Below, one piece after another: positions 2 through 22,681 of a stretch of DNA of 43,502 nt. The stretch covers positions 1 through 43,502 of the forward strand of contig JAOUCZ010000006.1 of assembly GCA_029859505.1 (NCBI GenBank), written 5' to 3'. The DNA is from Lysobacterales bacterium (GTDB taxonomy: Bacteria > Pseudomonadota > Gammaproteobacteria > Xanthomonadales > SZUA-36). The notes under the pieces are model-generated. The model made no database searches and was not told the DNA's origin. It saw only the letters and a program-made list of their open reading frames with translations. Positions within the stretch are counted from its first letter, which is position 1, and each line of letters starts with the position of its first letter. A program made the position numbers and the translations under genes.

Positions 2-334
2 CGGGACCCCGGGATCGCATTTGCAGAGGCCTGCGGGATATTGCTTGAGAGCAACCGCAGCATAGCGAACCGGATGTTCAAAGAACCACGCGGTGCATTG
101 GCACCAGGACAGCTGGCCGACATCATAATCTCCGATTACCTGCCGTTCACGCCGCTGAATGCCGATACTTTTTATGGACATCTGCTATTCGGGCTGAGTT
201 TCGCGCCTGTACGCACGACCATTGCACGTGGCCGGGTGATCATGGATGAAGGCCAGATGCCCCATCTGGATGAAGCGGCTATCCGTGCCCGTTGTACCCA
301 GCGGGCCGCCAATCTCTGGAGCCGGATTCACTAG
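2..334 (+). CDS. ssnA: SsnA-type amidohydrolase, C-terminal fragment
   Basis: This is the last 110 codons of a metal-dependent hydrolase of the SsnA/chlorohydrolase (amidohydrolase) family; the catalytic barrel lies outside the window. The visible part has the family's C-terminal composite beta-sandwich: a 'GALAPGQLADIIISDY' segment (typical 'G.l..G..ADlvv.d' motif of amidohydrolases), followed by 'NADTFYGHLLFGL' and 'VRTTIARGRVIMDEG', which match the SsnA subgroup from memory. In E. coli ssnA sits in the yge/xdhD locus, and here the next genes are ygfM-like and xdhD, which supports the name. The frame is open from base 2, so the 5' end is cut by the window edge. The deaminated or hydrolysed substrate is not known from sequence; an aminated purine-like ring is an inference from context. 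Confidence 0.82.
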   Translation, partial: RDPGIAFAEACGILLESNRSIANRMFKEPRGALAPGQLADIIISDYLPFTPLNADTFYGHLLFGLSFAPVRTTIARGRVIMDEGQMPHLDEAAIRARCTQRAANLWSRIH

Positions 335-370
335 AAGTGAGAGAAGTATTTCAACAAGAGGAATAGTGAC

Positions 371-1282
371 ATCAGAATTTGCTGGAAAAACTATCATACA
401 CCGCAGTCTATTGCCGAAGCGGTTGGGTGGCTGAAGCACTATGATGGTTCCGCCCGGGTACTCGGTGGTGGAACCGATCTTTTGCTGGATATCCAGCAAG
501 GCCGGAGCCCGGTGGAAGAGGCGATGGTGGACACCTCCCGGATTTCCGGGTTAGACCGTATCAGCATCGAACACGATCACATCGTAATTGGTTGTGCTGT
601 TACACATACACAAATTGTCCGGGAGCAATCCATTAGGCGTAGTGGCACCTGCCTGGTGGAAAGTTGCGGTGTCATCGGTGGTCCGCAAGTAAGAAACGTG
701 GCCACACTGGCCGGAAATGTTGCACATGCCATGCCGGCGGGTGATGGCAGCATCGGCTTGCTCGCACTTAATGGGGAGATAGAAGTTGCCGATGCCGCAG
801 GCTGTCGGTGGATGCCTTTGCAGGATGCCTTTCTGGGCCCGGGGAAAAGCGCAATTGATCCCCGACGGGCCCTTCTGACCCGACTACGATTCCGGCCCAC
901 AGTCGCAGGTGAGGCTTCTGCGTTTACACGCGTCATGCGACCGCAGGGCGTAGCCTTGCCAATGATATCGATGGCAGCACGATTGCAAGTTGACGGTGAC
1001 AATACCATTACCGCTGTCCGCATCAGCCTCGGCCCTGCCGGGCCGGTACCTCATCTGGCCCGTCCGGCCATGGATTTACTCAAAGGCAGGCCAGCGGTGT
1101 TGCAGGAGTTTAAAAAGGCGGCAGACGCTGTTCTTGCATCAGTTGCGTTGCGAAACAGTAAGCACCGTGCAACACGGGAGTACCGTGAAGAAATGATCCG
1201 CACACAATTGCCAATGATCCTTACCCGTGCCGCTGAACGTGCACGTGGCAGTCAGGTGGTACCACAGGGGCTTGGCTTATGA
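371..1282 (+). CDS. ygfM: YgfM-like FAD-binding subunit of a molybdenum hydroxylase
   Basis: FAD subunit (CO-dehydrogenase/xanthine-dehydrogenase medium-chain family) that would pass electrons from the XdhD iron-sulfur clusters to an acceptor. The family FAD loops are visible: 'RVLGGGTDLLLDIQ' encoded around 455–499, and 'VRNVATLAGNVAHAMPAGDG' at about 691–750; the C-terminal domain continues to the stop. The gene overlaps xdhD by ATGA (1279–1282). The start is a problem: the frame opens after a TGA at 338–340, but no ATG, GTG or TTG occurs in it before TTG 482, which lies inside the FAD loop and is too late. An AGAGGA (357–362) lies 8 nt before ATC 371, so I place the start there provisionally (about 303 aa). 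The alternative is GTG 366 with a one-base frameshift. Function is clear; the 5' end is uncertain. Confidence 0.75.
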   Translation: MRICWKNYHTPQSIAEAVGWLKHYDGSARVLGGGTDLLLDIQQGRSPVEEAMVDTSRISGLDRISIEHDHIVIGCAVTHTQIVREQSIRRSGTCLVESCGVIGGPQVRNVATLAGNVAHAMPAGDGSIGLLALNGEIEVADAAGCRWMPLQDAFLGPGKSAIDPRRALLTRLRFRPTVAGEASAFTRVMRPQGVALPMISMAARLQVDGDNTITAVRISLGPAGPVPHLARPAMDLLKGRPAVLQEFKKAADAVLASVALRNSKHRATREYREEMIRTQLPMILTRAAERARGSQVVPQGLGL

Positions 1283-4173
1283 GTCGCTTACAGATGGTGG
1301 TCAATGACAGGGCAGTGGATCTTGATGTTCCTGACTCGCGGTTCCTGTCGGAGGTATTGCGTGAGGACCTTGGTCTGACCGGTACCAAGATAGGGTGTAA
1401 CGAAGCGGAATGCGGCATTTGTACCGTGCTGGTTAATGGCACGCCAGTCGTGAGCTGCACCTACCCCGCTTTCAAGGCTTCAGGCACCCGTGTTGAAACC
1501 ATCGAAGGTCTGTCCACCGATGATAATCTGCATCCGCTGCAACAGGCATTCCTGGACCATGGTGCTGTTCAGTGCGGCATATGTACACCCGGTATGATCA
1601 TGACGTCCAAGGCCCTGTTGGATGAAAAACTCGCGATGGGCGAGGTGCCGAGTGAAAATGATATCAAGGCCGCGTTGAAAGATACCTATTGCCGCTGCAC
1701 TGGTTATCAAAGTGTCATCAGTGCCGTGAAACAGGCTTCCGGGCAGGATATTCCACCTTACATTCCTAAAACAGTTTCTGCCGGTTTTGAAGTGGGCAGG
1801 GCGAAACCCAACCCGGATGCCCTGGCCAAGATACGAGGTCAGGCAAAATTTACCGATGATTACCATTTCCCCGGAATGCTCTACGCACGTACCTTGCGCG
1901 CCGGTGTTCCGCATGCTCGTATAGGTTCGATAGATACCAGTGCCGCGCGTGCGCTGGCCGGTGTGCGTGCAGTCTTAACTCACGAGGATGTCCCAGGGCG
2001 CAACCTTCACGGAATAGTTGATCTGGACTGGCCGGTACTGTGTTCTGACAAGGTCCGTTACAGCGGGGATGCGGTGGCGGTTGTCGCCGCGGATAGTGAA
2101 AGTATCGCAACACAGGCGCTGGAGCTTATTAAGGTTGACTACGAGGAATTGACTGCGGTTACCGATGCGGTTTCTGCACTCAATTCCGGTGCGTCCGTTG
2201 TACATGAGGGCCGTGCTGATGGCAATCTGCTGAAACATATCAAGGTTAAAAAAGGTGATGTTGCCACCGGTTTTGACCAGGCCGATGTCATTGTTGACCG
2301 CACCTACCGTACACCGACCACCGAGCATATGTTCCTGGAGCCTGAGTGCGCTATAGGTGTTCCTGCAGGTTATGATCCAGCCAAATTTGGCGGGGCTTTC
2401 GATAAGGATGCAGTGCGGGGTATTACTGCCATTCATGACAAGTTATCAATTTATGTAGGTAGCCAGATTCCTTACCTTGACCGGGACCAGGCAGCCGCTG
2501 CCCTGGGGCGGGAGCCTGACCAGGTTCGTGTTGTTGCAACCCTGATGGGTGGTGGATTTGGTGGCAAGGAAGACATTGCCGGGCAGATACACGTAGCTTT
2601 GCTCAGCGAGGCGACGGACCGTCCTGTCAAAATGCTTTATTCGCGCCAGGAAAGCCTGCTTTTCCACCCGAAGCGTCACGCAACAGTCATCCGTATTCGC
2701 ACTGGTGCCACCAGCGAGGGCCGTTTAACTGCGGTCGCGGCAACACTGTATGGAGATGGTGGAGCCTACGCCAGCCTGAGTGAAAAAGTTCTCACCCGTG
2801 CCACCACACATGCTTCCGGTCCCTACGATGTGCCACATGTAAAAGTGGATTGTTTCGCCGCATATACCAACAACGCACCATGTGGTGCCTTTCGCGGGTT
2901 TGGTGTTTCACAAAGCTGCTTTGCGGTGGAAAGCAACATGGATATTCTGGCCGAGAAATTGGGGCTGGATGCCGTTGAATTCCGGCGTAGGAATACACTG
3001 GATGTGGGTTTGGTCACCGCCACCGGTCAAAAAATGCGTGAAAGCGTGGGATTGAACGAATGCATCTCGCGTGTAAACCGGGATATGCGGAACAATGATT
3101 TTCAATGGAGTTGGCAGGAAGGCCGTAGTCATTTTGCCTGGGGCTTTGCGGTCGCTTACAAGAATACCGGTCTTGGTGGGGGTGCGCCGGATAAATCCAG
3201 TGCCCAGGTCGAGCTATGGGCTGGTCCGGGCCAGGACATACGGGCCGAGGTGCGGACTACCGCAGCAGAGTTGGGGCAGGGTTTGCCGGCAGTACTGGCC
3301 GCCTGCACGGCAGAAGAGTTGGGCATCCCCGCTAAATGCGTGAATGTGCTGTTAGGTGATACCGATTATTGTCCGGATGGCGGGCCCACCACTGCCAGCC
3401 GGCAAACATTTGTTACAGGTAATGCGGCCCGCCACGCTGCGAGAAGTCTGACCGATCTACTCTCACCAGTTGCTGGTAAATTGTTGGCCTGTGATCCCGG
3501 TCAGGTTGAATTTAATGACGGCTGCTTTCGTGTAGCCGGCAACTCCATAAGCCTTGCAGAGGTAGTCAGAGCGGCCTCGGGTTCCGGTATCCCAACCGTA
3601 GCTGAATATGAGTATTGGGCTCCGAAAACCGAGCCATTAGGTACGGGCGGCGATATGCATTTTGCCTTTGGTTTCTGTGCCCAGGCTGTACTGTGTGAGG
3701 TCAACGGGGATACCGGTGAAGTTCATGTACGTAAGGTCGTTGCTGCACACGATGTTGGTCGTGCAATCAATCCGTTGACCCTGGAAGGACAGATCGAAGG
3801 TGGCATCGTCATGTGTATCGGATATGCGCTTACCGAACACTACATACAGGAACAGGCGCTGCCCTGGACCAGTGTCATGGCACGTTACAAGATGCCGGGC
3901 ATCGGGCACACACCCAGCATCATCTCGCATATCGTGGAGCACCCGACATCCAGCGGGCCATATGGAGCCAAGGGGGTAGGAGAGTTGCCAAGTATCCCCA
4001 CCAGCGCAGCCATAACCAATGCGATTTATCGTGCCACCGGCGTACGCGTACGCAGTTTGCCCGTTGATCAGGACGGACTACTGCGGGCCATGCGTGCCGG
4101 AGAGAAAGAAGTTGAACTGGGTTGGGGAGACCTCGAACCCATACCCGTGGTCACCCTTGGAGGTGAGAAGTGA
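1279..4173 (+). CDS. xdhD: XdhD-like molybdenum hydroxylase, fused [2Fe-2S] and molybdopterin subunits
   Basis: Hydroxylase of the xanthine oxidase family, 964 aa, combining the small iron-sulfur and large catalytic subunits in one chain. Residues 1–150 hold the two [2Fe-2S] domains: Cys40, Cys45, Cys48, Cys60 (plant-ferredoxin type) and Cys99, Cys102, Cys138, Cys140. The molybdopterin part shows 'GGGFGGKED' (about residue 425), 'GAFRGFGVSQ' (about 535) and the C-terminal 'GAKGVGELP' carrying the expected catalytic Glu902. No FAD domain is fused; it is the separate upstream gene, as in E. coli ygfM–xdhD. There is no signal peptide, so the enzyme should be cytoplasmic. The probable substrate is a purine or other N-heterocycle; that is inference from the neighbouring ssnA, ygeW and ygeY. 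It overlaps genes on both sides by 4 nt, so translation is likely coupled. Confidence 0.92.
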   Translation: MSRLQMVVNDRAVDLDVPDSRFLSEVLREDLGLTGTKIGCNEAECGICTVLVNGTPVVSCTYPAFKASGTRVETIEGLSTDDNLHPLQQAFLDHGAVQCGICTPGMIMTSKALLDEKLAMGEVPSENDIKAALKDTYCRCTGYQSVISAVKQASGQDIPPYIPKTVSAGFEVGRAKPNPDALAKIRGQAKFTDDYHFPGMLYARTLRAGVPHARIGSIDTSAARALAGVRAVLTHEDVPGRNLHGIVDLDWPVLCSDKVRYSGDAVAVVAADSESIATQALELIKVDYEELTAVTDAVSALNSGASVVHEGRADGNLLKHIKVKKGDVATGFDQADVIVDRTYRTPTTEHMFLEPECAIGVPAGYDPAKFGGAFDKDAVRGITAIHDKLSIYVGSQIPYLDRDQAAAALGREPDQVRVVATLMGGGFGGKEDIAGQIHVALLSEATDRPVKMLYSRQESLLFHPKRHATVIRIRTGATSEGRLTAVAATLYGDGGAYASLSEKVLTRATTHASGPYDVPHVKVDCFAAYTNNAPCGAFRGFGVSQSCFAVESNMDILAEKLGLDAVEFRRRNTLDVGLVTATGQKMRESVGLNECISRVNRDMRNNDFQWSWQEGRSHFAWGFAVAYKNTGLGGGAPDKSSAQVELWAGPGQDIRAEVRTTAAELGQGLPAVLAACTAEELGIPAKCVNVLLGDTDYCPDGGPTTASRQTFVTGNAARHAARSLTDLLSPVAGKLLACDPGQVEFNDGCFRVAGNSISLAEVVRAASGSGIPTVAEYEYWAPKTEPLGTGGDMHFAFGFCAQAVLCEVNGDTGEVHVRKVVAAHDVGRAINPLTLEGQIEGGIVMCIGYALTEHYIQEQALPWTSVMARYKMPGIGHTPSIISHIVEHPTSSGPYGAKGVGELPSIPTSAAITNAIYRATGVRVRSLPVDQDGLLRAMRAGEKEVELGWGDLEPIPVVTLGGEK

Positions 4174-5663
4174 AACTGATACCGGAAATTAACGAAGCGG
4201 TACTCAATAAGAGTATTGAGCGTGCCCGTGAGCGCAATATTATCCTGCCGACTTTTGCCCAGATGAAGAATCCCGGTCTGATTCCGGAGATGATTAAAGA
4301 ACGACTTCGTCAAGTTGGGCTATGGGATATGGATCCAGCCAACCTGTTCCGGATCACCTGGAAGAATGAACCGATAGCCCAGGGTGGCGGGTATGGCGAG
4401 GGTAACTGGATTGAGTTTCCCTCCTCAATCACGGGCGTGGATGCGAGAATCGTTGGAATCAGTGGTAAATGGTTTCCAACCGGCGCCCACAAGGTCGGAG
4501 CAGCCTATGGCTGCCTGGTGCCACGTCTGGTAACCGGAGCCTTCGACCCTGATACCCAAAAAGCAGTCTGGCCTTCGACTGGTAATTACTGCCGTGGCGG
4601 TGCTTATGATTGCGCGCTACTTGCCTGTCCCGCAGTTGCCATTCTGCCGGAGGGCATGAGCCATGAACGATTTGACTGGTTACAGAAAATTGGCACCGAC
4701 GAGATTATCGCAACACCCGGAACCGAATCCAACGTTAAGGAGATCTACGACAAATGCTGGGAGTTGCGGCGTGAGCGCGGTGATGGGGTCGTTATTTTTA
4801 ACCAGTTCGAGGAATTTGGTAACGCCATTTGGCATTACCACACCACCGGCTCGCTGATCGGGGAAACCTTCAATAACCATTACGCCCACGGCCCGAATGG
4901 AGAAGCAGGGCGGCTGTCTGCATATGTCAGCGCCACGGGTTCTGCGGGTACCTTGGCCGCCGGTGACTTTTTACGCAGACATCACCCGGGTATCCGCGTG
5001 GTGGCGACCGAAGCCTTGCAGTGCCCTACGCTATTAAGTTTCGGTTTTGGTGAACACCGTGTTGAAGGTATTGGCGACAAGCACATACCGTGGATTCACA
5101 ACGTGCGTAATACCGACATGGTGGTGGCCGTTGATGATGAGCAGACAATGCAACTGATGCGCTTGTTCAACGAAGATGAGGGCCATGCCTGCCTGCGCCG
5201 TGAGGGTGTTGATGAGGCGACTATCGGAGCACTGGGTCAGATCGGAATCTCCGGTCTTTGCAACCTCGTGGCGAGTATCAAAACAGCGCGTTATTACGAC
5301 ATGGATGGTCGTGATGTGATTTTTACCCCGCTGACCGACTCAATGGAGCTGTATTCATCACGCATGGAGGAGATGAAGGCAAAACACGGGCCATACACAA
5401 CGCACCTGGCTGACCAACACTATGGGCGCTACCTGATGGGTATAGGCCCGGATTACTTGCGGGAGTTGGGTTATGCCGATCGTAAGGCATTGCATAACTT
5501 TAAATACTTCACCTGGGTGGAACAGCAGGGCCGTTCTTCAGAGGAACTCCGGGAACTGTGGGATGAGGACTTCTGGACCGAAGTATTCTCACAGGAGGTT
5601 GTCGATGAATGGGACCAGCTTATTAACAACTTTAACCGGGCGACCGGGTTGAGTCAGCCGTGA
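4170..5663 (+). CDS. TrpB-like fold-type-II PLP enzyme of the yge cluster
   Basis: A 497-aa PLP enzyme of the tryptophan synthase beta/cysteine synthase superfamily. The likely Schiff-base lysine is Lys108 in 'PTGAHKVGAAY', resembling the TrpB 'GAHK' motif; 'STGNYCRGG' at 136–144 is the substrate-carboxylate (asparagine) loop, and 'SATGSAGTLAAG' at about 254–265 fits the phosphate-binding glycine loop. An N-terminal extension of about 90 residues and a long C-terminal part make it larger than cysteine synthase. The start is GTG 4170, overlapping the xdhD stop, with GGAGGTGA just before it. It sits where E. coli has ygeX (diaminopropionate ammonia-lyase, about 400 aa) but does not look like YgeX. 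A beta-elimination of an amino acid with a nitrogen leaving group would suit the pathway; this is inference. The reaction cannot be named from sequence. Confidence 0.8.
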   Translation: MKLIPEINEAVLNKSIERARERNIILPTFAQMKNPGLIPEMIKERLRQVGLWDMDPANLFRITWKNEPIAQGGGYGEGNWIEFPSSITGVDARIVGISGKWFPTGAHKVGAAYGCLVPRLVTGAFDPDTQKAVWPSTGNYCRGGAYDCALLACPAVAILPEGMSHERFDWLQKIGTDEIIATPGTESNVKEIYDKCWELRRERGDGVVIFNQFEEFGNAIWHYHTTGSLIGETFNNHYAHGPNGEAGRLSAYVSATGSAGTLAAGDFLRRHHPGIRVVATEALQCPTLLSFGFGEHRVEGIGDKHIPWIHNVRNTDMVVAVDDEQTMQLMRLFNEDEGHACLRREGVDEATIGALGQIGISGLCNLVASIKTARYYDMDGRDVIFTPLTDSMELYSSRMEEMKAKHGPYTTHLADQHYGRYLMGIGPDYLRELGYADRKALHNFKYFTWVEQQGRSSEELRELWDEDFWTEVFSQEVVDEWDQLINNFNRATGLSQP

Positions 5664-6886
5664 TGAGAGACAAGAACATGCAGATCAACAGCCATGATTA
5701 CGGCGATGCAAAGAAAATCGAATCCGATCTCGCTGCCTTTATGCAGGCTATCATTCGAATTCCTTCACTGAGTTCAAGGGAAGGCGCAGTTATCGAACGA
5801 ATGAGTGAGGAAATGCTGCGGGTCGGGTTTGACGAGGTAATAGTTGATCCAATGGGTAACCTGATCGGCCGTATCGGTTCGGGTCCTTTTGTGATTGCGT
5901 TGGATGGACACGCGGATACCGTGGACACCGGTGACCTGTCTTTGTGGGATCGTGACCCCCATTCCGGCGACATAGAGGACGGTGTTCTTTACGGCCGTGG
6001 CGCCAGTGACCAAAAAGGCGGAATCGCTTCTGCCGTTTATGCGGGCGCGTTGTTGAAAAAGGCCGGGATACCGGATGAGGTCACGCTGTATGTGACAGCA
6101 ACTGTGCAGGAAGAGGACTGCGATGGCTTGTGCTGGCAATACATTGTCAACGAGCTTGGGTTACGCCCGGACCTGGTCGTGATTACCGAACCGACCAGTC
6201 TTCGTCTTTACCGCGGCCAGCGTGGGCGAATGGAGATGGAAGTGCACACATCGGGTATTTCCTGTCATGGATCGGCACCGGAGCGCGGTGTCAATGCCAT
6301 CTACAAAATGGCGAACATCATTGCGGATATCGAGAAACTTAACCAAAGACTGGAGCCACGTTCACCTCTGGGCAAAGGCACAGTGACCATCAGTGAAATA
6401 CGCTCCACCTCGCCGAGCCTGTGCGCCGTCGCTGACGGCTGTACTATCCACCTGGATCGCCGTTTGACCGTGGGTGAAACGGAAGCAACAGCGGTAGCGG
6501 AAATTTACGCATTACCATCGGTTAAGGCTGCTGATGCCACTGTAACCGTTTTGAATTATGCGGTACCCAGCCATACGGGTCTGGTCTACCCGACCCGCAA
6601 ATACTACCCGACCTGGGACACCGATGAGGATGATCCTGCCATGCTGAGCGCAAAAACCGCGTACCGTGCCGCATTTGGGGAAGAGCCTGAAACGGGCTTT
6701 TGGACATTCAGCACCAATGGTGTTGCGATAGCGGGTATGCATGGGATTCCATCCATCGGATTCGGCCCCGGACATGAACACTTCGCTCATGCACCTAATG
6801 AACAGGTGGATATCGAGCACCTGGTGCGCTGCACGGCTTTTTACACCGCCCTGGTCAAGACCCTGGCCCGTCAACAAGGAGAATAA
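5663..6886 (+). CDS. ygeY: YgeY-type M20 family metallohydrolase
   Basis: Zinc-dependent hydrolase of the M20/ArgE/DapE family, about 407 aa. Metal-ligand motifs are visible: 'LDGHADT' near residues 80–86, 'GRGASDQKGG' near 111–120 and 'VQEEDCDGLCWQY' near 148–160. The stretch 'YRGQRGRMEMEVHTSG', 'SCHGSAPERGVNA' and the end 'GFGPGHEHFAHAPNEQ' match E. coli YgeY closely from memory. Start choice: ATG 5663 overlaps the upstream TGA; ATG 5678, preceded by GAGAG, is an equally good start and would shorten the protein by five residues. The family cleaves amide bonds of N-acyl or N-carbamoyl amino acids, so removal of a carbamoyl, formyl or peptide-like group from a ring-opening product is likely. 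The exact substrate is not visible. Confidence 0.9.
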   Translation: MRDKNMQINSHDYGDAKKIESDLAAFMQAIIRIPSLSSREGAVIERMSEEMLRVGFDEVIVDPMGNLIGRIGSGPFVIALDGHADTVDTGDLSLWDRDPHSGDIEDGVLYGRGASDQKGGIASAVYAGALLKKAGIPDEVTLYVTATVQEEDCDGLCWQYIVNELGLRPDLVVITEPTSLRLYRGQRGRMEMEVHTSGISCHGSAPERGVNAIYKMANIIADIEKLNQRLEPRSPLGKGTVTISEIRSTSPSLCAVADGCTIHLDRRLTVGETEATAVAEIYALPSVKAADATVTVLNYAVPSHTGLVYPTRKYYPTWDTDEDDPAMLSAKTAYRAAFGEEPETGFWTFSTNGVAIAGMHGIPSIGFGPGHEHFAHAPNEQVDIEHLVRCTAFYTALVKTLARQQGE

Positions 6887-6887
6887 A

Positions 6888-7889
6888 ATGAATCAGGAAG
6901 CATTACCGCTGACAGACCGTATGAAGGGCCGCGACTGGCTGATGACCCAGGACTGGGCGGATGACGAGATTGAACTTGTTCTGGAGACAGCCAACCAGTT
7001 AAAAACCGATTTCAAAACTGGTGTACAGACGCTACACCTGCCGCACAAAACCATCTTTCTGATATTTTTTGACAAATCCACACGCACCCGTAACTCATTT
7101 GAGGCCGGTATCACCCAGTTAGGTGGTCATGGGCACTTTATCGATTCCGAAACATCACAAATTGCCCATGGCGAAAGTCCCAAGGACATGGGAATTATTT
7201 TATCCAGCTACGGCCACGGTATAGCAATACGCCATGACACCGTACCAGGCGAAGGACAGACCTACATGCGCGAGGTGGCCGAGTGGGCCAGTGTGCCGGT
7301 GATCAACATGCAATGTGACGTGGACCACCCGTGCCAGACACTGGCCGACCTGATGACCATTCGCGAGGAGTTTGGCAAGGATCTGCGTGATCTCAAGATT
7401 GCAGTTTCCTGGGCTTACGCACCAAGTTATGTCAAACCGATGTCAGTTCCCCAGGGGTTGATCATGCTGATGACACGTTATGGTATGAATGTCACCCTGG
7501 CCCATCCACCGGAATACACGCTGATGGCCGACACCATGCGTATTGCACACGAGAACACAACGCGTTCCGGCGGTAAGTTTTCAGTGGTTAACACAATGGA
7601 AGAAGCATTCGAGGACGCGGATATTGTGTATCCAAAAAGCTGGGGTCCTGAGGCCCTTTTTTCCAATCCTGAGGAGGCGATGAAGGTGGCTTCCGGGTAC
7701 CGTCACTGGATCTGTGACGAGGCGATGATGGCGCATGCGAAAAAGCAGGCGGTTTACATGCATTGCCTGCCGGCGGATCGTGGCAGTGAAGTGACCGATG
7801 CGGTGATTGATGGACCGCAGTCGCGTGTTTACCCGGAGGCAGAAAACCGAATGCATACGGCCAAGGCCCTGATGGCCTTGACAATGTAG
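6888..7889 (+). CDS. ygeW: YgeW-type knotted carbamoyltransferase
   Basis: Carbamoyltransferase of the aspartate/ornithine carbamoyltransferase superfamily, 333 aa. The carbamoyl-phosphate-binding motif 'STRTR' is at residues 64–68, 'DHPCQTLADL' at 146–155 and the OTC-type 'MHCLP' at 291–295. The overall sequence matches YgeW, a knotted member whose acceptor amino acid in E. coli was long unknown. ATG 6888 is preceded by AAGGAG at 6876–6881; a longer in-frame opening back to 6741 overlaps ygeY and is not the start. It lies one base after the ygeY stop and 15 nt before the carbamate kinase. With the kinase downstream, it most likely works in the catabolic direction, taking a carbamoyl group from a degradation product to make carbamoyl phosphate. 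That direction is inferred from context. Confidence 0.92.
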   Translation: MNQEALPLTDRMKGRDWLMTQDWADDEIELVLETANQLKTDFKTGVQTLHLPHKTIFLIFFDKSTRTRNSFEAGITQLGGHGHFIDSETSQIAHGESPKDMGIILSSYGHGIAIRHDTVPGEGQTYMREVAEWASVPVINMQCDVDHPCQTLADLMTIREEFGKDLRDLKIAVSWAYAPSYVKPMSVPQGLIMLMTRYGMNVTLAHPPEYTLMADTMRIAHENTTRSGGKFSVVNTMEEAFEDADIVYPKSWGPEALFSNPEEAMKVASGYRHWICDEAMMAHAKKQAVYMHCLPADRGSEVTDAVIDGPQSRVYPEAENRMHTAKALMALTM

Positions 7890-7904
7890 AAGGAGACCGC
7901 CCGG

Positions 7905-8879
7905 ATGAACAAGCACGTCGACACTGGTGAGTCTCGTAAAGCACCACTTGTGGTGATTGCCGTTGGCGGTAACTCGTTGATCAAAGATGACCAGCACCGG
8001 ACCGTGTTGGATCAGTACAACGCTGTCGGTGAGACCGCTCGCCATATCGTACCGATTGTATCTGAAGGTTATCGCGTTGTTGTCACTCATGGCAACGGAC
8101 CGCAGGTGGGATTCATACTTCTGCGATCTGACCTGGCCCGTGAAATACTGCACCAGGTGCCGCTGGCCAGTTGTGTGGCTGATACACAGGGTGCCATCGG
8201 TTACCAGGTAGCGCAGACCCTGCAGAACGAACTTCTCCGCACTGGTATCGATAAGGATGTGGCTGCGGTGGTGACCCAGGTCGTTGTAGATGCGGATGAT
8301 CCGGGCTTCGAAAGACCCGACAAACCCATTGGGCCTTTCATGACTGCGGATGATGCGGCCAGGCATGCCAGTGAAGATGGTTGGATCGTGGGTGAGGACG
8401 CTGGCCGCGGTTGGCGGCGCCTGGTTGCTGCTCCCGCCCCTCGTGAGATTGTTGAGCTCAACTCCATACGCACGTTGCTTGATAACGGAACGCTGGTTGT
8501 TGCTGTGGGCGGTGGTGGGGTTCCAGTGGTTCGTTTAGCTGACGGAAGCCTCACCGGGCGAGATGCTGTGATTGATAAAGATGCTGCTTCCAGCCTATTG
8601 GCAAGTGAGCTCGGTGCCTCGGTTTTGATCAAGTCCACCAGCGTGGACAAGGTCGCATTGAACTTTGGTACACCACAACAGCAGGATATCGATCACATGA
8701 CGGCTTCGGAATGCCGCCGCTACCTTGACCAGGGGCATTTTGCCCCCGGTAGTATGCAACCCAAGATCGAGGCCGCGCTTGCCTTTCTGGAACAGGGGGG
8801 TGAAAGGGTCATTATCACTCAACCCCATCATCTTGAAGAGGCACTGCACGGTATATACGGTACCCACATTGTGCCATGA
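7905..8879 (+). CDS. yqeA: Carbamate kinase (YqeA/ArcC type)
   Basis: Carbamate kinase, 324 aa, transferring phosphate from carbamoyl phosphate to ADP to give ATP, CO2 and ammonia. The amino-acid-kinase fold motifs are 'AVGGNSL' near residue 20, 'THGNGPQVG' near 64, 'DTQGAIGY' near 95, 'AVGGGGVPV' near 200 and 'GRDAVIDKDAASSLLA' near 218; 'GSMQPKIEAAL' precedes the C terminus. The length is that expected for ArcC. ATG 7905 has a GGAG about 10 nt upstream. No arginine deiminase (arcA) or antiporter (arcD) is next to it; the neighbour is ygeW, so I use the E. coli yge-locus paralogue name yqeA. The gene supplies the energy-conserving last step for carbamoyl phosphate made by YgeW. Confidence 0.92.
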   Translation: MNKHVDTGESRKAPLVVIAVGGNSLIKDDQHRTVLDQYNAVGETARHIVPIVSEGYRVVVTHGNGPQVGFILLRSDLAREILHQVPLASCVADTQGAIGYQVAQTLQNELLRTGIDKDVAAVVTQVVVDADDPGFERPDKPIGPFMTADDAARHASEDGWIVGEDAGRGWRRLVAAPAPREIVELNSIRTLLDNGTLVVAVGGGGVPVVRLADGSLTGRDAVIDKDAASSLLASELGASVLIKSTSVDKVALNFGTPQQQDIDHMTASECRRYLDQGHFAPGSMQPKIEAALAFLEQGGERVIITQPHHLEEALHGIYGTHIVP

Positions 8880-8892
8880 AGAGATATCGAGA

Positions 8893-10176
8893 ATGAGCAT
8901 GAACGGTTATAAGTGTGTTGCCTGCTCGGTGGTGCAATCACCGGGGTTTGAAGGTTTTTTGTGTCCTGCCTGTGGCGGTAATCTTGATGTCAGCTACGAC
9001 TATGATGAAGCTGCCTCAAAAATTGACGGGCGCTTTGCTGAAGGCTCAAATGACCTGTTCCGGTTTGCAGCGTTGCTACCACTAAAATGGCCACGTTCGC
9101 CTTTTCCGCTGCGGGTAGGGGGTACACCACTGTACCCGGTACGTCCGTTGGAAGAACTGAAAGGAATGTGCAATTTGTATCTCAAGGATGAGACCCTGAA
9201 TCCCAGTGCATCGCTTAAAGACCGTGCAAGCGCTGTAACCGTTGGCCGGGCGCTGGATGTGGGTGCCGGTGTTGTAGCAGTGGCAAGTACCGGTAATGCC
9301 GGTTCCTCGCTCGCCTGCCTGGCCGCCGCCACCGGGCTCGTTTCAGTGGTATTCGTGCCCGCCAGTGCGCCCGAGGCCAAACTCACCCAGATGCTCGCAT
9401 TCGGTGCCAGAGTGATGGCAGTCAATGGTACCTATGATGATGCTTATGATCTGTGTACTGCGGCATGCACTGAATTCGGATGGTTCAATCGCAGCACAGG
9501 CTACAACGCGTTTACCCGTGAGGGCAAAAAAACCTGCGCATACGAGATATGGCAGGATCTTGGCGGCCGGGTACCGGATCGTGTCATGGTTTCCACCGGT
9601 GACGGAAATACGCTCAGTGCCATATGGAAAGGCTGGTGTGATCTGAAAGCAGTGGGTTTGATCGATAGTTTGCCAAAGATTGACTGTGTCCAGTCGCAAG
9701 CGAGTGCAGCGATCAACGATACGATTCAACAGGTTCGCAGTGTTGACGATGTTGTTGTGGACTGGTCTCGCCTGGTGGTAAGAGAGGTCAGCGCATCAAC
9801 CGTTGCAGACTCCATCTCTGTTGACAGGCCACGTGACGGTTTGGCTGCTGTTAAGGCTGTCATTCAATCCGGCGGCGAAGCGATAACAGTATCCGACCAG
9901 GAAATTCTGGCTGCCATTCCTGAAATGGCACAGCTCACTGGTGTTTTCGCAGAACCTGCAGCGGCTGCGCCATGGGCGGGTCTGAAGCATTTGCTAAAAA
10001 ATCAGATGGTAGCTCGTGAGGAATTGGTGGTATGCATTGTTTCCGGCAGTGGTCTCAAGGATATTAGCAGCGCAAGTAAGGAAGTGGGTCAGCCGTGTCT
10101 TATTGAGCCGTCACTCAAGGCCGTAAAGGAAAGTCATCCACCATTGGACGTTTTAGTGCCCTGCAACCAGGTGTAG
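8893..10176 (+). CDS. Threonine-synthase-like PLP enzyme with N-terminal zinc ribbon
   Basis: A 427-aa fold-type-II PLP enzyme of the threonine synthase branch. It begins with a zinc-ribbon-like module, Cys8/Cys11 and Cys24/Cys27, seen in one group of threonine synthases. The Schiff-base lysine is expected at Lys109 in 'NPSASLKDRAS', with 'ASTGNAGSS' at 131–139 as the substrate loop and 'VSTGDGNTLSA' near 236 as a glycine loop. ATG 8893 is the first start after the carbamate kinase stop; the reading frame runs further upstream inside that gene but only as overlap. Its place as the last gene of the catabolic operon, with no homoserine kinase or homoserine dehydrogenase nearby, argues against biosynthetic threonine synthase. 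An elimination or replacement on a pathway amino acid is more likely, for example a diaminopropionate or O-phosphoamino-acid-like substrate (inference). Confidence 0.82.
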   Translation: MSMNGYKCVACSVVQSPGFEGFLCPACGGNLDVSYDYDEAASKIDGRFAEGSNDLFRFAALLPLKWPRSPFPLRVGGTPLYPVRPLEELKGMCNLYLKDETLNPSASLKDRASAVTVGRALDVGAGVVAVASTGNAGSSLACLAAATGLVSVVFVPASAPEAKLTQMLAFGARVMAVNGTYDDAYDLCTAACTEFGWFNRSTGYNAFTREGKKTCAYEIWQDLGGRVPDRVMVSTGDGNTLSAIWKGWCDLKAVGLIDSLPKIDCVQSQASAAINDTIQQVRSVDDVVVDWSRLVVREVSASTVADSISVDRPRDGLAAVKAVIQSGGEAITVSDQEILAAIPEMAQLTGVFAEPAAAAPWAGLKHLLKNQMVAREELVVCIVSGSGLKDISSASKEVGQPCLIEPSLKAVKESHPPLDVLVPCNQV

Positions 10177-10336: not shown

Positions 10337-11020
10337 TTGAACAAAATTAGGCGCAAAAAAGCATTGCGATTTCTCGAATCAGGCTTCCTGGTGACGGGTC
10401 TGATTTTGCTCACCACCTTTGTCCTCGCCCGTGTTTGGGGCGATTATCAGAGCAAGTCTGATATTCTTGCTTTCGAGCAGGCCATCGTCACTGAATCCGC
10501 GCCAGCCGATACACTGCCGGGTGACAAAAGCACACTATCAGACGAGCCTGACTATACACTTTGGTCGAGCAAGCGCATTGATGACTACCATAAAAGCCTA
10601 ACGCAACGTGATGATGCGCCGCTGGCGGTACTGAGTATCGACAAGCTTGCATTGAAGGTCCCCGTCTATAACGGCACAGATGAGATCAACCTGAATCGTG
10701 GCGCCGGGCGAATCAAGGGTACTGCCAGGGTGGGTTCACCGGGTAACCTCGGTATTGCTGCTCACCGGGACGGGTTTTTTCGCGGACTGAAAGACATCGA
10801 GATAGGAGACAGCATCGATATGCTGACTCAACAAGGTAAATCAGAATTTGTGGTTTCTTCAATCACCATCGTTGATCCCACGGATATTAGTGTGCTCGCA
10901 CCTACCGACGATTTCACAATCACACTTGTGACGTGCTATCCCTTTTATTTTGTCGGTCATGCACCTAAGCGTTATATTGTAAAAGGTGAGTTGCTTTCTA
11001 ATCTGTTAAATAAATCATAG
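10337..11020 (+). CDS. Gram-negative sortase (class D-like)
   Basis: Membrane-anchored cysteine transpeptidase, 227 aa. Residues 1–10 are basic, residues about 15–33 form one membrane anchor, and the sortase beta-barrel follows from about 94. The catalytic triad is visible: His143 in 'GIAAHRDGFF', Cys200 in 'TLVTCYPF' and Arg212 in 'PKRYIV'. The start must be TTG 10337: an in-frame stop lies just upstream (10331) and no other start occurs before the membrane segment; an AGGT at 10324–10327 may serve as ribosome site. The next gene, 12 nt downstream, carries an LPTTAG sorting signal and is the obvious substrate. In Gram-negatives such enzymes sit in the inner membrane; what nucleophile they attach to is not generally settled. 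Confidence 0.9.
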   Translation: MNKIRRKKALRFLESGFLVTGLILLTTFVLARVWGDYQSKSDILAFEQAIVTESAPADTLPGDKSTLSDEPDYTLWSSKRIDDYHKSLTQRDDAPLAVLSIDKLALKVPVYNGTDEINLNRGAGRIKGTARVGSPGNLGIAAHRDGFFRGLKDIEIGDSIDMLTQQGKSEFVVSSITIVDPTDISVLAPTDDFTITLVTCYPFYFVGHAPKRYIVKGELLSNLLNKS

Positions 11021-11032
11021 ACGAGGATTGAA

Positions 11033-11617
11033 ATGAAAATAGCTAATTTGAAATACGGCCTTATTGCCATCGCTGGCCTGGGAATTTCAGCAAATGCCAG
11101 TGCAGCACTTACTTGTGAAGATATTGTGTTTTCTCCGGAAGCTTTTGAGGCATATGAGTTTGTAGACAAGGCGTGCCTTGAAATGGTTGATCGCAACGGT
11201 GTGATGTTTGCCAAGCTGACAGCCAGGGTCGTTGCGCAAACCGCAAGCGGCACACATCTGCGTTACAGACATGCAGACGGCCAGCTTGGCCCAAGCCACC
11301 TCTCAACTGCTCCAAACGACTTCGAGACAATGATGTCCGGTGAACCGGTCAGGATGGTAGATCTTGCGGTAAGGCAGCAGATCAATATCTATGTGGGTAG
11401 CAAGTACTGGGTGGACCCGACATTACTGGTTGAAGAAGCGATTGTTGAAGAGATGGTAGAAGAAGCAATTGTCGAAGAGGTCATCGAAGAAGAGATCATT
11501 GAAGAAGAGATGGAAGCAGAACTGCCAACGACGGCGGGTCCGTTGCCATGGCTGGCATTGTTTGGTTCCCTGTTCCTGATTCTCGGTGGCGCATTGCGTT
11601 TCTCTCGGAAGCAGTAA
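11033..11617 (+). CDS. Sortase substrate with LPTTAG sorting signal and acidic stalk
   Basis: A 194-aa exported protein without a domain I recognise. The signal peptide covers about residues 1–24 ('GISANASA' before the cut). The mature N-terminal part (25–133) has a possible disulfide pair, Cys28 and Cys48. Residues about 134–163 are a run of Glu/Val/Ile/Met repeats ('VEEAIVEE' and variants) that should be an extended acidic stalk. Then come LPTTAG at 164–169, a hydrophobic segment at about 172–188 and the basic end 'RFSRKQ', i.e. a complete C-terminal sorting signal. It follows the sortase by 12 nt with GACGAGGA as ribosome site, and a strong terminator lies 97 nt downstream, so the two form a two-gene operon. 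The function of the displayed part is unknown. Confidence 0.85.
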   Translation: MKIANLKYGLIAIAGLGISANASAALTCEDIVFSPEAFEAYEFVDKACLEMVDRNGVMFAKLTARVVAQTASGTHLRYRHADGQLGPSHLSTAPNDFETMMSGEPVRMVDLAVRQQINIYVGSKYWVDPTLLVEEAIVEEMVEEAIVEEVIEEEIIEEEMEAELPTTAGPLPWLALFGSLFLILGGALRFSRKQ

Positions 11618-21625: not shown

Positions 21626-21727
21626 TCTCTTCAAATGACTGGCTTATATCGGTAGCAGGTGTCAGCGCGATAGCCGAATATGTTCTATTATTGAGCCATA
21701 ACCATTTAATAATTGAAGGACGACAAC

Positions 21728-22681
21728 ATGATTTGTAACACCATTCTCGACACGATCGGTAATACGCCTGTGGTCAGCATTAACAGGCTCGCACCCGAGG
21801 GCATAGACATGTTCGTCAAGGTGGAGGCATTCAATCCGATGTCTTCGGTCAAAGACCGGCTGGCTATCGGCATCATTGAAGATGCTGAACGCAAAGGCCT
21901 GTTAAAGCCCGGTCAGACGGTTATTGAAGCAACATCCGGCAACACCGGAATTGCACTGGCCATGGTGTGCGCGGTTAAAGGTTATCCATTCGTGGCCGTC
22001 ATGGCAGAGTCCTTTTCCATTGAGCGTCGCAAACTGATGCGCGCTTTGGGAGCACGTGTTGTATTGACACCTGCAGCGGAGCGCGCCACCGGTATGTTAA
22101 AGGTTACAAAAGCACTGGCCAGCAAGCATGGCTGGTTTATGACCGAGCAGTTCGACAACCAGGCAAATCCTGATTACCACCGCAACACAACCGGTCCGGA
22201 AATTATTCGTGACTTTGCCGGTCGGCGACTGGACTATTACGTTTCAGGCTGGGGTACAGGCGGCACCATTACCGGTGCGGGTGAGATGATCAAGCTTGCA
22301 CGGCCGGACGTGCGTGTGATCGCGACAGAGCCCGAAGGTGCAGCAATGCTAAGTGGCAACGCCTGGGCACCGCACAAGATCCAGGGTTGGACCCCCGATT
22401 TCATTCCCTCGGTGCTTGACCGGAATGTGGTTGATGAATTGGTTACCGTGACGGATGATGAAGCAATCGAAACCGCAAAGGCGCTGGCGATTAAGGAAGG
22501 TATTTTCTGCGGCATTTCAGCAGGTGGAACGTTTGCCGCAGCATTGAAAGTAGCCGCTAAGGCCGACGCAGGTTCTACTATTCTGGCCATGCTGCCCGAC
22601 ACCGGTGAGCGTTATCTGTCCACACCCCTGTTTGAAGGTGTGAAGGAAGGTGGTGACGATGAATTGTTGGAAGGGCTGTAA
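21728..22681 (+). CDS. cysK: Cysteine synthase (O-acetylserine sulfhydrylase A)
   Basis: PLP enzyme forming cysteine from O-acetylserine and sulfide; 317 aa, CysK size. The Schiff-base lysine is Lys42 in 'NPMSSVKDRLA', the substrate loop is 'EATSGNTGIAL' near 67–77, and the phosphate loop is 'GWGTGGTITGAGE' near 174–186. ATG 21728 has GAAGGA about 10 nt upstream; an in-frame TTG at 21713 is less likely. 'WAPHKIQGWTPDFIPSVL' fits CysK rather than CysM. It is monocistronic and convergent with oxyR. Confidence 0.94.
   Translation: MICNTILDTIGNTPVVSINRLAPEGIDMFVKVEAFNPMSSVKDRLAIGIIEDAERKGLLKPGQTVIEATSGNTGIALAMVCAVKGYPFVAVMAESFSIERRKLMRALGARVVLTPAAERATGMLKVTKALASKHGWFMTEQFDNQANPDYHRNTTGPEIIRDFAGRRLDYYVSGWGTGGTITGAGEMIKLARPDVRVIATEPEGAAMLSGNAWAPHKIQGWTPDFIPSVLDRNVVDELVTVTDDEAIETAKALAIKEGIFCGISAGGTFAAALKVAAKADAGSTILAMLPDTGERYLSTPLFEGVKEGGDDELLEGL

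Follow-up and report, generated by a model that had tools for sequence, protein, structure and literature searches.

The DNA analysed here (the window) is a stretch of 43,502 nucleotides (nt) that makes up the whole of contig C287 in the genome assembly of a marine-type Lysobacterales bacterium (GenBank JAOUCZ010000006.1); its first base falls inside ssnA, and eight pathway genes lie on its forward strand (Table 1). All eight had been proposed by a sequence-only reading in the order ssnA, ygfM, xdhD, pyridoxal phosphate (PLP) enzyme, ygeY, ygeW, carbamate kinase and second PLP enzyme, and all were confirmed on one strand; the two PLP enzymes, here PLP1 and PLP2, are an integral part of the operon and accompany the pathway repeatedly across many bacterial groups. 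As also anticipated, YgeX was not found: the best match to its model (TIGR03528) in this genome, an assembly that is 88.7% complete, reached 54.8 bits against a cut-off of 532. The operon is probably a version of the reductive (oxygen-free) uric acid pathway that works independently of YgeX, in which PLP1 and PLP2 would finish the C3 amino acid.

The pathway was worked out in 2025 (Li et al. 2025, PMC12507026). In the sections of the sources cited here, the E. coli cluster comprises xdhD, ygfM, ygfK, ssnA, hyuA, ygeW, yqeA, ygeY and ygeX (PMC12507026); XdhD-YgfM converts urate into yanthine, YgfK catalyzes a reduction, and SsnA and HyuA perform ring opening, after which two ureido groups are taken off by YgeW with the kinase and by YgeY, and YgeX transforms 2,3-diaminopropionate (DAP) into pyruvate (PMC12507026, PMC12990295). 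PMC12507026 assigns YgeX the same activity toward both DAP isomers and names, in the cited sections, no alternative to this enzyme. In which order and with what stereochemistry the ureido groups are removed is unsettled according to PMC12990295. The gene ygeX, or dpaL, is listed with the cluster in other bacteria (PMC6615313, PMC2276186). In a search of the open-access literature, neither PLP1 nor PLP2 was reported in the uric acid pathway, and no assay of either enzyme was found.

The operon and its upstream continuation

Regarding gene spacing, adjacent genes from ygfM to the PLP2 gene are 1 to 15 nt apart or overlap by 4 nt, as in the claim that overlaps and gaps would not exceed 15 nt; the claim failed at the first junction, where ssnA and ygfM are separated by 147 nt if standard start codons are assumed. 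YgfM homology starts near position 383, and no ATG, GTG or TTG occurs ahead of 482; judging from the letters, either ygfM may have an unusual start codon or base calls may be off between 335 and 482.

The remainder of ssnA is on a second contig of the same genome, C59, whose last 27 nt, once the contig is reversed, overlap exactly with the first 27 nt of the window; it carries SsnA residues 1-338 (positions 1-339 of the TIGR03314 profile). The two parts scored 86 bits (window) and 360 bits (C59), neither reaching the 455.5-bit cut-off alone; they were scored only separately. As for ygfK, hyuA and ygeX, which the same reading had singled out as genes to look for upstream, C59 encodes YgfK upstream of ssnA (887 bits, equivalog cut-off 835), and E. 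coli YgeX and HyuA gave no match in its 11.1 kb. Upstream of ygfK are a small gene without family match, two genes assigned as putative narI and narJ from their size and position, and then narH and narG, both above cut-off; nitrate reductase genes lie upstream of ygfK at L094:5800-11100, and a gene for a DNA-3-methyladenine glycosylase is between ygfK and ssnA on the opposite strand (L094:1073-1804). The five related gammaproteobacterial loci with enough flanking DNA (L002, L004, L007, L008 and L013) have the order ygfK-ssnA-ygfM-xdhD-PLP1-ygeY-carbamoyltransferase-kinase-PLP2.

The gene read as ygeW encodes a carbamoyltransferase that branches in the tree (no support values were printed) as the sister of the YgeW clade and outside it; at 263 and 244 bits it is below both YgeW cut-offs (453 and 500). 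XdhD is closer to TIGR03311 than to TIGR03313. The position of E. coli Glu606 was considered as a urate-reductase marker and proved uninformative for the window protein, because it borders an insertion that this protein does not have and cannot be aligned with confidence.

Table 1. Genes of the operon at the start of the window, with the models that identify them
Feature	Position	Strand	Model evidence
ssnA, C-terminal quarter; amidohydrolase opening the reduced purine ring	2-334	+	TIGR03314 86 bits, profile 334-441 of 441
ygfM-like flavin adenine dinucleotide (FAD) subunit	482-1282	+	PF00941, PF03450
xdhD-like molybdenum hydroxylase, Fe-S and Mo domains	1279-4173	+	TIGR03311 749 bits (cut-off 830); TIGR03313 298 bits (cut-off 1102)
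PLP1, fold-type II PLP enzyme of 497 amino acids, family without a name, TGAHK and STGNYCRGG motifs	4170-5663	+	PF00291, only Pfam match
ygeY, M20 hydrolase removing a ureido group	5660-6886	+	NF009555 549 bits (cut-off 321)
Carbamoyltransferase, YgeW sister	6888-7889	+	PF02729, PF00185; start ATG at 6888, AGGAG upstream
Carbamate kinase, ATP from carbamoyl phosphate	7905-8879	+	NF009007 390 bits (cut-off 266)
PLP2, threonine-synthase-like fold-type II PLP enzyme, four-cysteine N-terminus	8893-10176	+	TIGR00260 172 bits (cut-off 167)

Past the operon, positions 10337-11617 encode a sortase (124 bits with the SrtD model, cut-off 140; above the cut-off of a general sortase model) and, directly after it, an acidic protein whose C-terminus has LPTTAG, a hydrophobic stretch and RKQ; the two are likely a sortase-substrate pair in a Gram-negative bacterium.

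The two PLP enzymes

PLP1 reaches the cut-off of no NCBIfam model; its best match is TIGR01139 with 88 bits (87.7) against a cut-off of 351, and the best E-value of this model among 49 PLP1 members was 4.1e-33. These 49 aligned members have a mean column identity of 69%, and TG-HKVGA and VWPSTGN-CRGG are invariant. The predicted model (predicted local distance difference test, pLDDT, 90.9) has the fold of cysteine synthase and cystathionine beta-synthase, with Z values reaching 36 across about 310 residues and with extra terminal parts; O-ureido-serine synthase is among the matches (Z 34.3, 310 residues, root mean square deviation, rmsd, 2.8 Å). The sequence-only reading had called PLP1 TrpB-like: the TGAHK stretch, which presumably holds the PLP lysine and which we take to be a TrpB-like motif, fits that name, but sequence and fold match cysteine synthases best. 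With YgeX, the profile alignment is weak (E 1e-5), too weak to judge the positions of D120 and D189, and no YgeX is among 50 structure matches listed for the PLP1 model, a list that excludes nothing. TIGR03528 gave no match to PLP1 at E ≤ 0.001 in the genome search, and 24.7 bits with PLP2.

The closest PLP1 matches include six records named Woeseiaceae, with 78-81% identity, which makes the organism Woeseiaceae-like, and records of the PLP1 and PLP2 families are named Gammaproteobacteria, Planctomycetota, Kiritimatiellae, Elusimicrobia, Bacteroidetes and Spirochaetota. Distant PLP1 relatives (43-45%) are found on two conjugative rhizobial plasmids (L087:11977-13476 and L088:12070-13404), with no uric acid genes listed nearby; their neighbors are M20 peptidases, sulfite exporters and, in L088, a RidA protein. 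These plasmid relatives gave no clue to the PLP1 substrate, nor did the non-pathway neighbors of PLP1 elsewhere (in L052 an aconitase family protein, an alanine racemase and a peptide-binding protein; in L062 proteins with CpXC and poly(A) polymerase domains).

As for PLP2, the predicted model (pLDDT 90.4) has the threonine synthase fold, with a best Z of 42-44. The solved diaminopropionate ammonia-lyases match it with Z 34.1 and 33.7 (311 and 310 residues, rmsd 2.8 and 2.7 Å), and dehydratases and racemases do so about as well, serine and aspartate racemases having Z 34-35. The PLP2 and YgeX profiles can be aligned over 299 columns (E 5e-18). The NSVNPxR stretch of solved threonine synthases (2d1f, 2zsj and 1uim), which we take to bind the substrate phosphate, has its N, S and R replaced in PLP2, with NP mostly kept; of 33 members, 19 have T at the arginine position and the other 14 have L. 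Four cysteines (C8, C11, C24 and C27) are invariant in all 33 aligned members, and R200, K212 and K213 are invariant as well.

Both enzymes were considered as housekeeping genes and rejected as such for this genome, which has its own cysK (positions 21713-22681 of the window, 408 bits, cut-off 351) and a separate thrC (324 bits) adjoining thrB on contig C290.

Distribution of PLP1, PLP2 and YgeX

The PLP1 locus set consists of the best 80 of at least 589 confirmed relatives, several on short contigs. At set score thresholds, these loci contained ssnA (33), xdhD (30), the carbamoyltransferase (27), ygfK (26), ygeY (23), the kinase (17), PLP2 (36) and hyuA (3). One or more of five core genes (ssnA, ygfK, xdhD, ygeY and the carbamoyltransferase) occurred in 43 loci and two or more in 35, and no locus had a match to E. 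coli YgeX above 200 bits. Of the 36 loci with both PLP1 and PLP2, 19 have the two genes less than 400 nt from each other, as do 9 of the 16 spirochaete loci with both. Around PLP2-type genes (40 stretches), PLP2 adjoins the carbamoyltransferase, the kinase, YgeY or SsnA in many cases.

The association extends to genomes in which the genes are not linked: where PLP1 stood apart from pathway genes, 27 of 30 genomes encode SsnA (E ≤ 1e-60, lowest 285 bits), compared with 4 of 398 genomes sampled from the phylum to which the window belongs, its own genome included, a sample not matched by taxon; for two of these four the best match is guanine deaminase. The own-phylum sample was dropped for the co-occurrence test because it held too few SsnA genomes. 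PLP2 reached at least 390 bits in 25 of the 30 genomes, was fragmentary in 2 and absent in 3, and none of them had been used to build its profile. Another 50 genomes were picked by eye from the 80 for PLP2 or pathway genes beside PLP1, with those of L059 and L072 added; PLP2 scored at least 400 bits in 47, with one further fragment, and although 32 of the 50 had served to build the profile, PLP2 is present in 15 of the 18 that had not. YgeX was above cut-off in none of the 50.

YgeY was above cut-off in 33 of 40 PLP1 genomes. It had no match in the genomes of L015 and L048, whose stretches each hold two carbamoyltransferases. In the spirochaete PLP1-type clusters L145, L146 and L149, two or three carbamoyltransferase paralogues occur and no YgeY lies in the stretch; in YgeY-less clusters of this kind, both ureido groups are perhaps removed by phosphorolysis.

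The co-occurrence of PLP1 with ygeX, a tabulation suggested for both PLP enzymes by the sequence-only reading, was made for PLP1 in 296 genomes drawn evenly from one phylum, that of the PLP1-positive spirochaete genome G461 at the center of the draw, and not selected by PLP1. SsnA (E ≤ 1e-80) was found in 53 genomes, PLP1 in 28 and both in 27; PLP1 is thus present in 27 of the 53 SsnA genomes and in 1 of the 243 others (Fisher p about 2e-22, with no correction for kinship). The earlier reading had asked whether the PLP enzymes are widespread without the pathway; for PLP1, within this one phylum, a single genome has it without SsnA, an outcome in favor of that reading. YgeX was above cut-off in 24 genomes, namely 22 of the 26 SsnA genomes without PLP1, 2 without SsnA and none of the 28 with PLP1. 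PLP2 follows PLP1, being present in 16 of 20 PLP1 stretches against none of 8 stretches from 6 YgeX genomes; two of the four PLP1 stretches without it are contigs shorter than 7 kb.

Interpretation and comparison with known systems

By analogy with the published E. coli pathway, XdhD-YgfM would convert uric acid into yanthine, YgfK would reduce the ring and SsnA would open it, the second ring being opened by a hydantoinase encoded elsewhere; the YgeW-sister carbamoyltransferase, carbamate kinase and YgeY would then take off the two ureido groups, yielding ATP and leaving DAP. The operon with its continuation keeps all steps but those of HyuA and YgeX, and therefore the last one is left to PLP1 and PLP2, which would transform the C3 diamino acid, or a ureido precursor, into pyruvate and ammonia in place of YgeX. 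Most likely the two are beta-eliminating lyases that share the work of YgeX; because YgeX accepts both DAP isomers and the stereochemistry of ureido removal is unsettled, one lyase for each stereoisomer is the simplest guess. A bolder version can be put forward only tentatively: that the two enzymes together constitute a terminal module whose chemistry is new to urate breakdown (for example DAP lyases each specific for one isomer, or cleavage acting directly on a ureido amino acid), replacing YgeX in a large part of SsnA-bearing bacteria.

Several findings weigh against the YgeX-independent reading. No hydantoinase or HyuA match was found in the window or on C59, and the rest of the genome was not searched for one. 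On the protein side, PLP1 matches beta-replacement enzymes best when models are compared, PLP2 matches threonine synthases (Z 42-44) better than DAP lyases (Z about 34), and the YgeX columns D120 and D189, which we take to be catalytic, correspond in PLP2 to Thr and to a gap, both aspartates being absent. The genomes of L050 and L060 (among the 50) and of L034 and L065 (among the 30) yielded no PLP2, and 4 of the 53 SsnA genomes of the phylum sample have neither PLP1 nor YgeX above cut-off. A further difficulty comes from YgeX relatives below the 532-bit cut-off: they occur at 504-524 bits in 3 of the 50 PLP1 genomes (L012, L059 and L072) and at 347-526 bits in 14 genomes of the phylum sample, 13 of which carry PLP1 and SsnA; counted as YgeX, they reduce the contrast among SsnA genomes to 13 of 27 with PLP1 against 22 of 26 without it (p 0.008). 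Such a relative stands beside PLP1 or pathway genes in L148, L156 and L171 (stretches were examined for 12 of the 13 genomes), and K77, D120 and D189 are kept in all 11 aligned sub-cut-off relatives, 6 or 7 of which are from L160-L169; the L160-L169 stretches themselves showed no pathway marker apart from one weak match each to a PLP2-like protein (L160) and to a permease (L167). The presence of YgeX relatives in PLP1 genomes implies that PLP1 and PLP2 may do something besides DAP cleavage, and replacement of YgeX as a universal rule is rejected. The claim of the sequence-only reading that ygeX is replaced by two other PLP enzymes is not supported as a strict replacement, given such relatives in 3 of 50 and 13 of 28 PLP1 genomes and the rhizobial PLP1 relatives.

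Among other explanations, it is unlikely, but worth weighing, that only one of the two PLP enzymes is the lyase and the other serves it as a racemase or isomer-specific partner, converting for instance D- into L-diaminopropionate. Fold-type II includes the serine and aspartate racemases that match PLP2, PLP1 directly follows an alanine racemase gene in the spirochaete locus L052, and the cited section of PMC12507026 describes YgeX as acting on either isomer equally; the racemase match is no specific pointer, though, since dehydratases and DAP lyases fit the PLP2 model about equally, and an alanine racemase beside PLP1 was identified in that one locus only.

Equally improbable is that PLP1 or PLP2 acts earlier, either by beta-elimination on albizziin or by CysK/TrpB-like replacement of the beta-nitrogen to give, for example, serine, which would then be deaminated. 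The best matches of PLP1, O-ureido-serine synthase included, agree with such a role, as do the YgeX relatives of some PLP1 genomes, where DAP may be handled separately; YgeY, which converts albizziin into DAP in E. coli, is nevertheless retained in most PLP1 genomes searched for it.

The sequence-only reading had left a choice between a different route to the amino acid end product and a different substrate. The former fits better, because SsnA, YgfK, YgeY, the YgeW-sister carbamoyltransferase and carbamate kinase are all kept. That the operon acts on something other than uric acid, with PLP enzymes serving another end product, is a doubtful proposal: XdhD is far from TIGR03313 (298 of 1102 bits), its Glu606 region is not confidently alignable and the operon has no hydantoinase, but YgfK is above an equivalog cut-off, SsnA and YgeY are present, and C. 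difficile XdhD is likewise only 26% like that of E. coli, as given in the cited part of PMC12507026. Finally, that PLP1 and PLP2 are ordinary amino acid biosynthesis genes placed here by chance is very improbable: PLP2 passes the TIGR00260 cut-off narrowly and is the only threonine synthase match in 7 of 43 genomes, but 34 of the 43 have two or more thrC-family matches, this genome has its own cysK and thrB-thrC, and PLP1 co-occurs with SsnA.

If the YgeX-independent reading is true, two enzyme families spread across many bacterial groups gain a pathway and a testable reaction, and alternative parts become available for urate-degrading laboratory strains. It also bears on annotation: PLP2 scores above the cut-off of a threonine synthase model, and the only domain assigned to PLP1 is PF00291, which is generic for PLP enzymes. 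The published network colored YgeX by PF00291 (Figure 3 legend, PMC12507026), and because this marker is common to PLP1 and PLP2, clusters without YgeX could be scored as YgeX-positive.

Compared with individual enzymes, YgeX (TIGR03528; PDB 4d9m and 5ygr) is likewise a fold-type II PLP enzyme and its profile can be aligned with that of PLP2, but PLP1 and PLP2 are both outside TIGR03528, and PLP2 is without the D120 and D189 residues. PLP2 shares with threonine synthase (TIGR00260) the fold and the S-KDR and STGN motifs, together with that narrow pass; it differs in the replaced N, S and R of NSVNPxR, in the gain of invariant R200 and K212, and in the existence of a separate thrC by thrB. PLP1 has the fold of cysteine synthase and cystathionine beta-synthase, from which it is set apart by a score far below cut-off, by about 180 residues more than CysK and by the TGAHK stretch.

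At the level of the whole cluster, the window and C59 share with the E. coli reductive uric acid cluster YgfK, SsnA, a molybdenum enzyme of the YgfM/XdhD type, YgeY, a carbamoyltransferase and carbamate kinase; the window operon differs in having no YgeX or HyuA, a YgeW sister below the cut-offs, an XdhD nearer to TIGR03311 and two extra PLP enzymes. The UacX/UacY variant of C. difficile, as presented in the cited sections of PMC12507026, keeps YgeX and swaps YgfK and YgeW, whereas the window variant keeps YgfK and is without YgeX; what the two have in common is that other enzymes take over known steps of the pathway, as PLP1 and PLP2 would do here.

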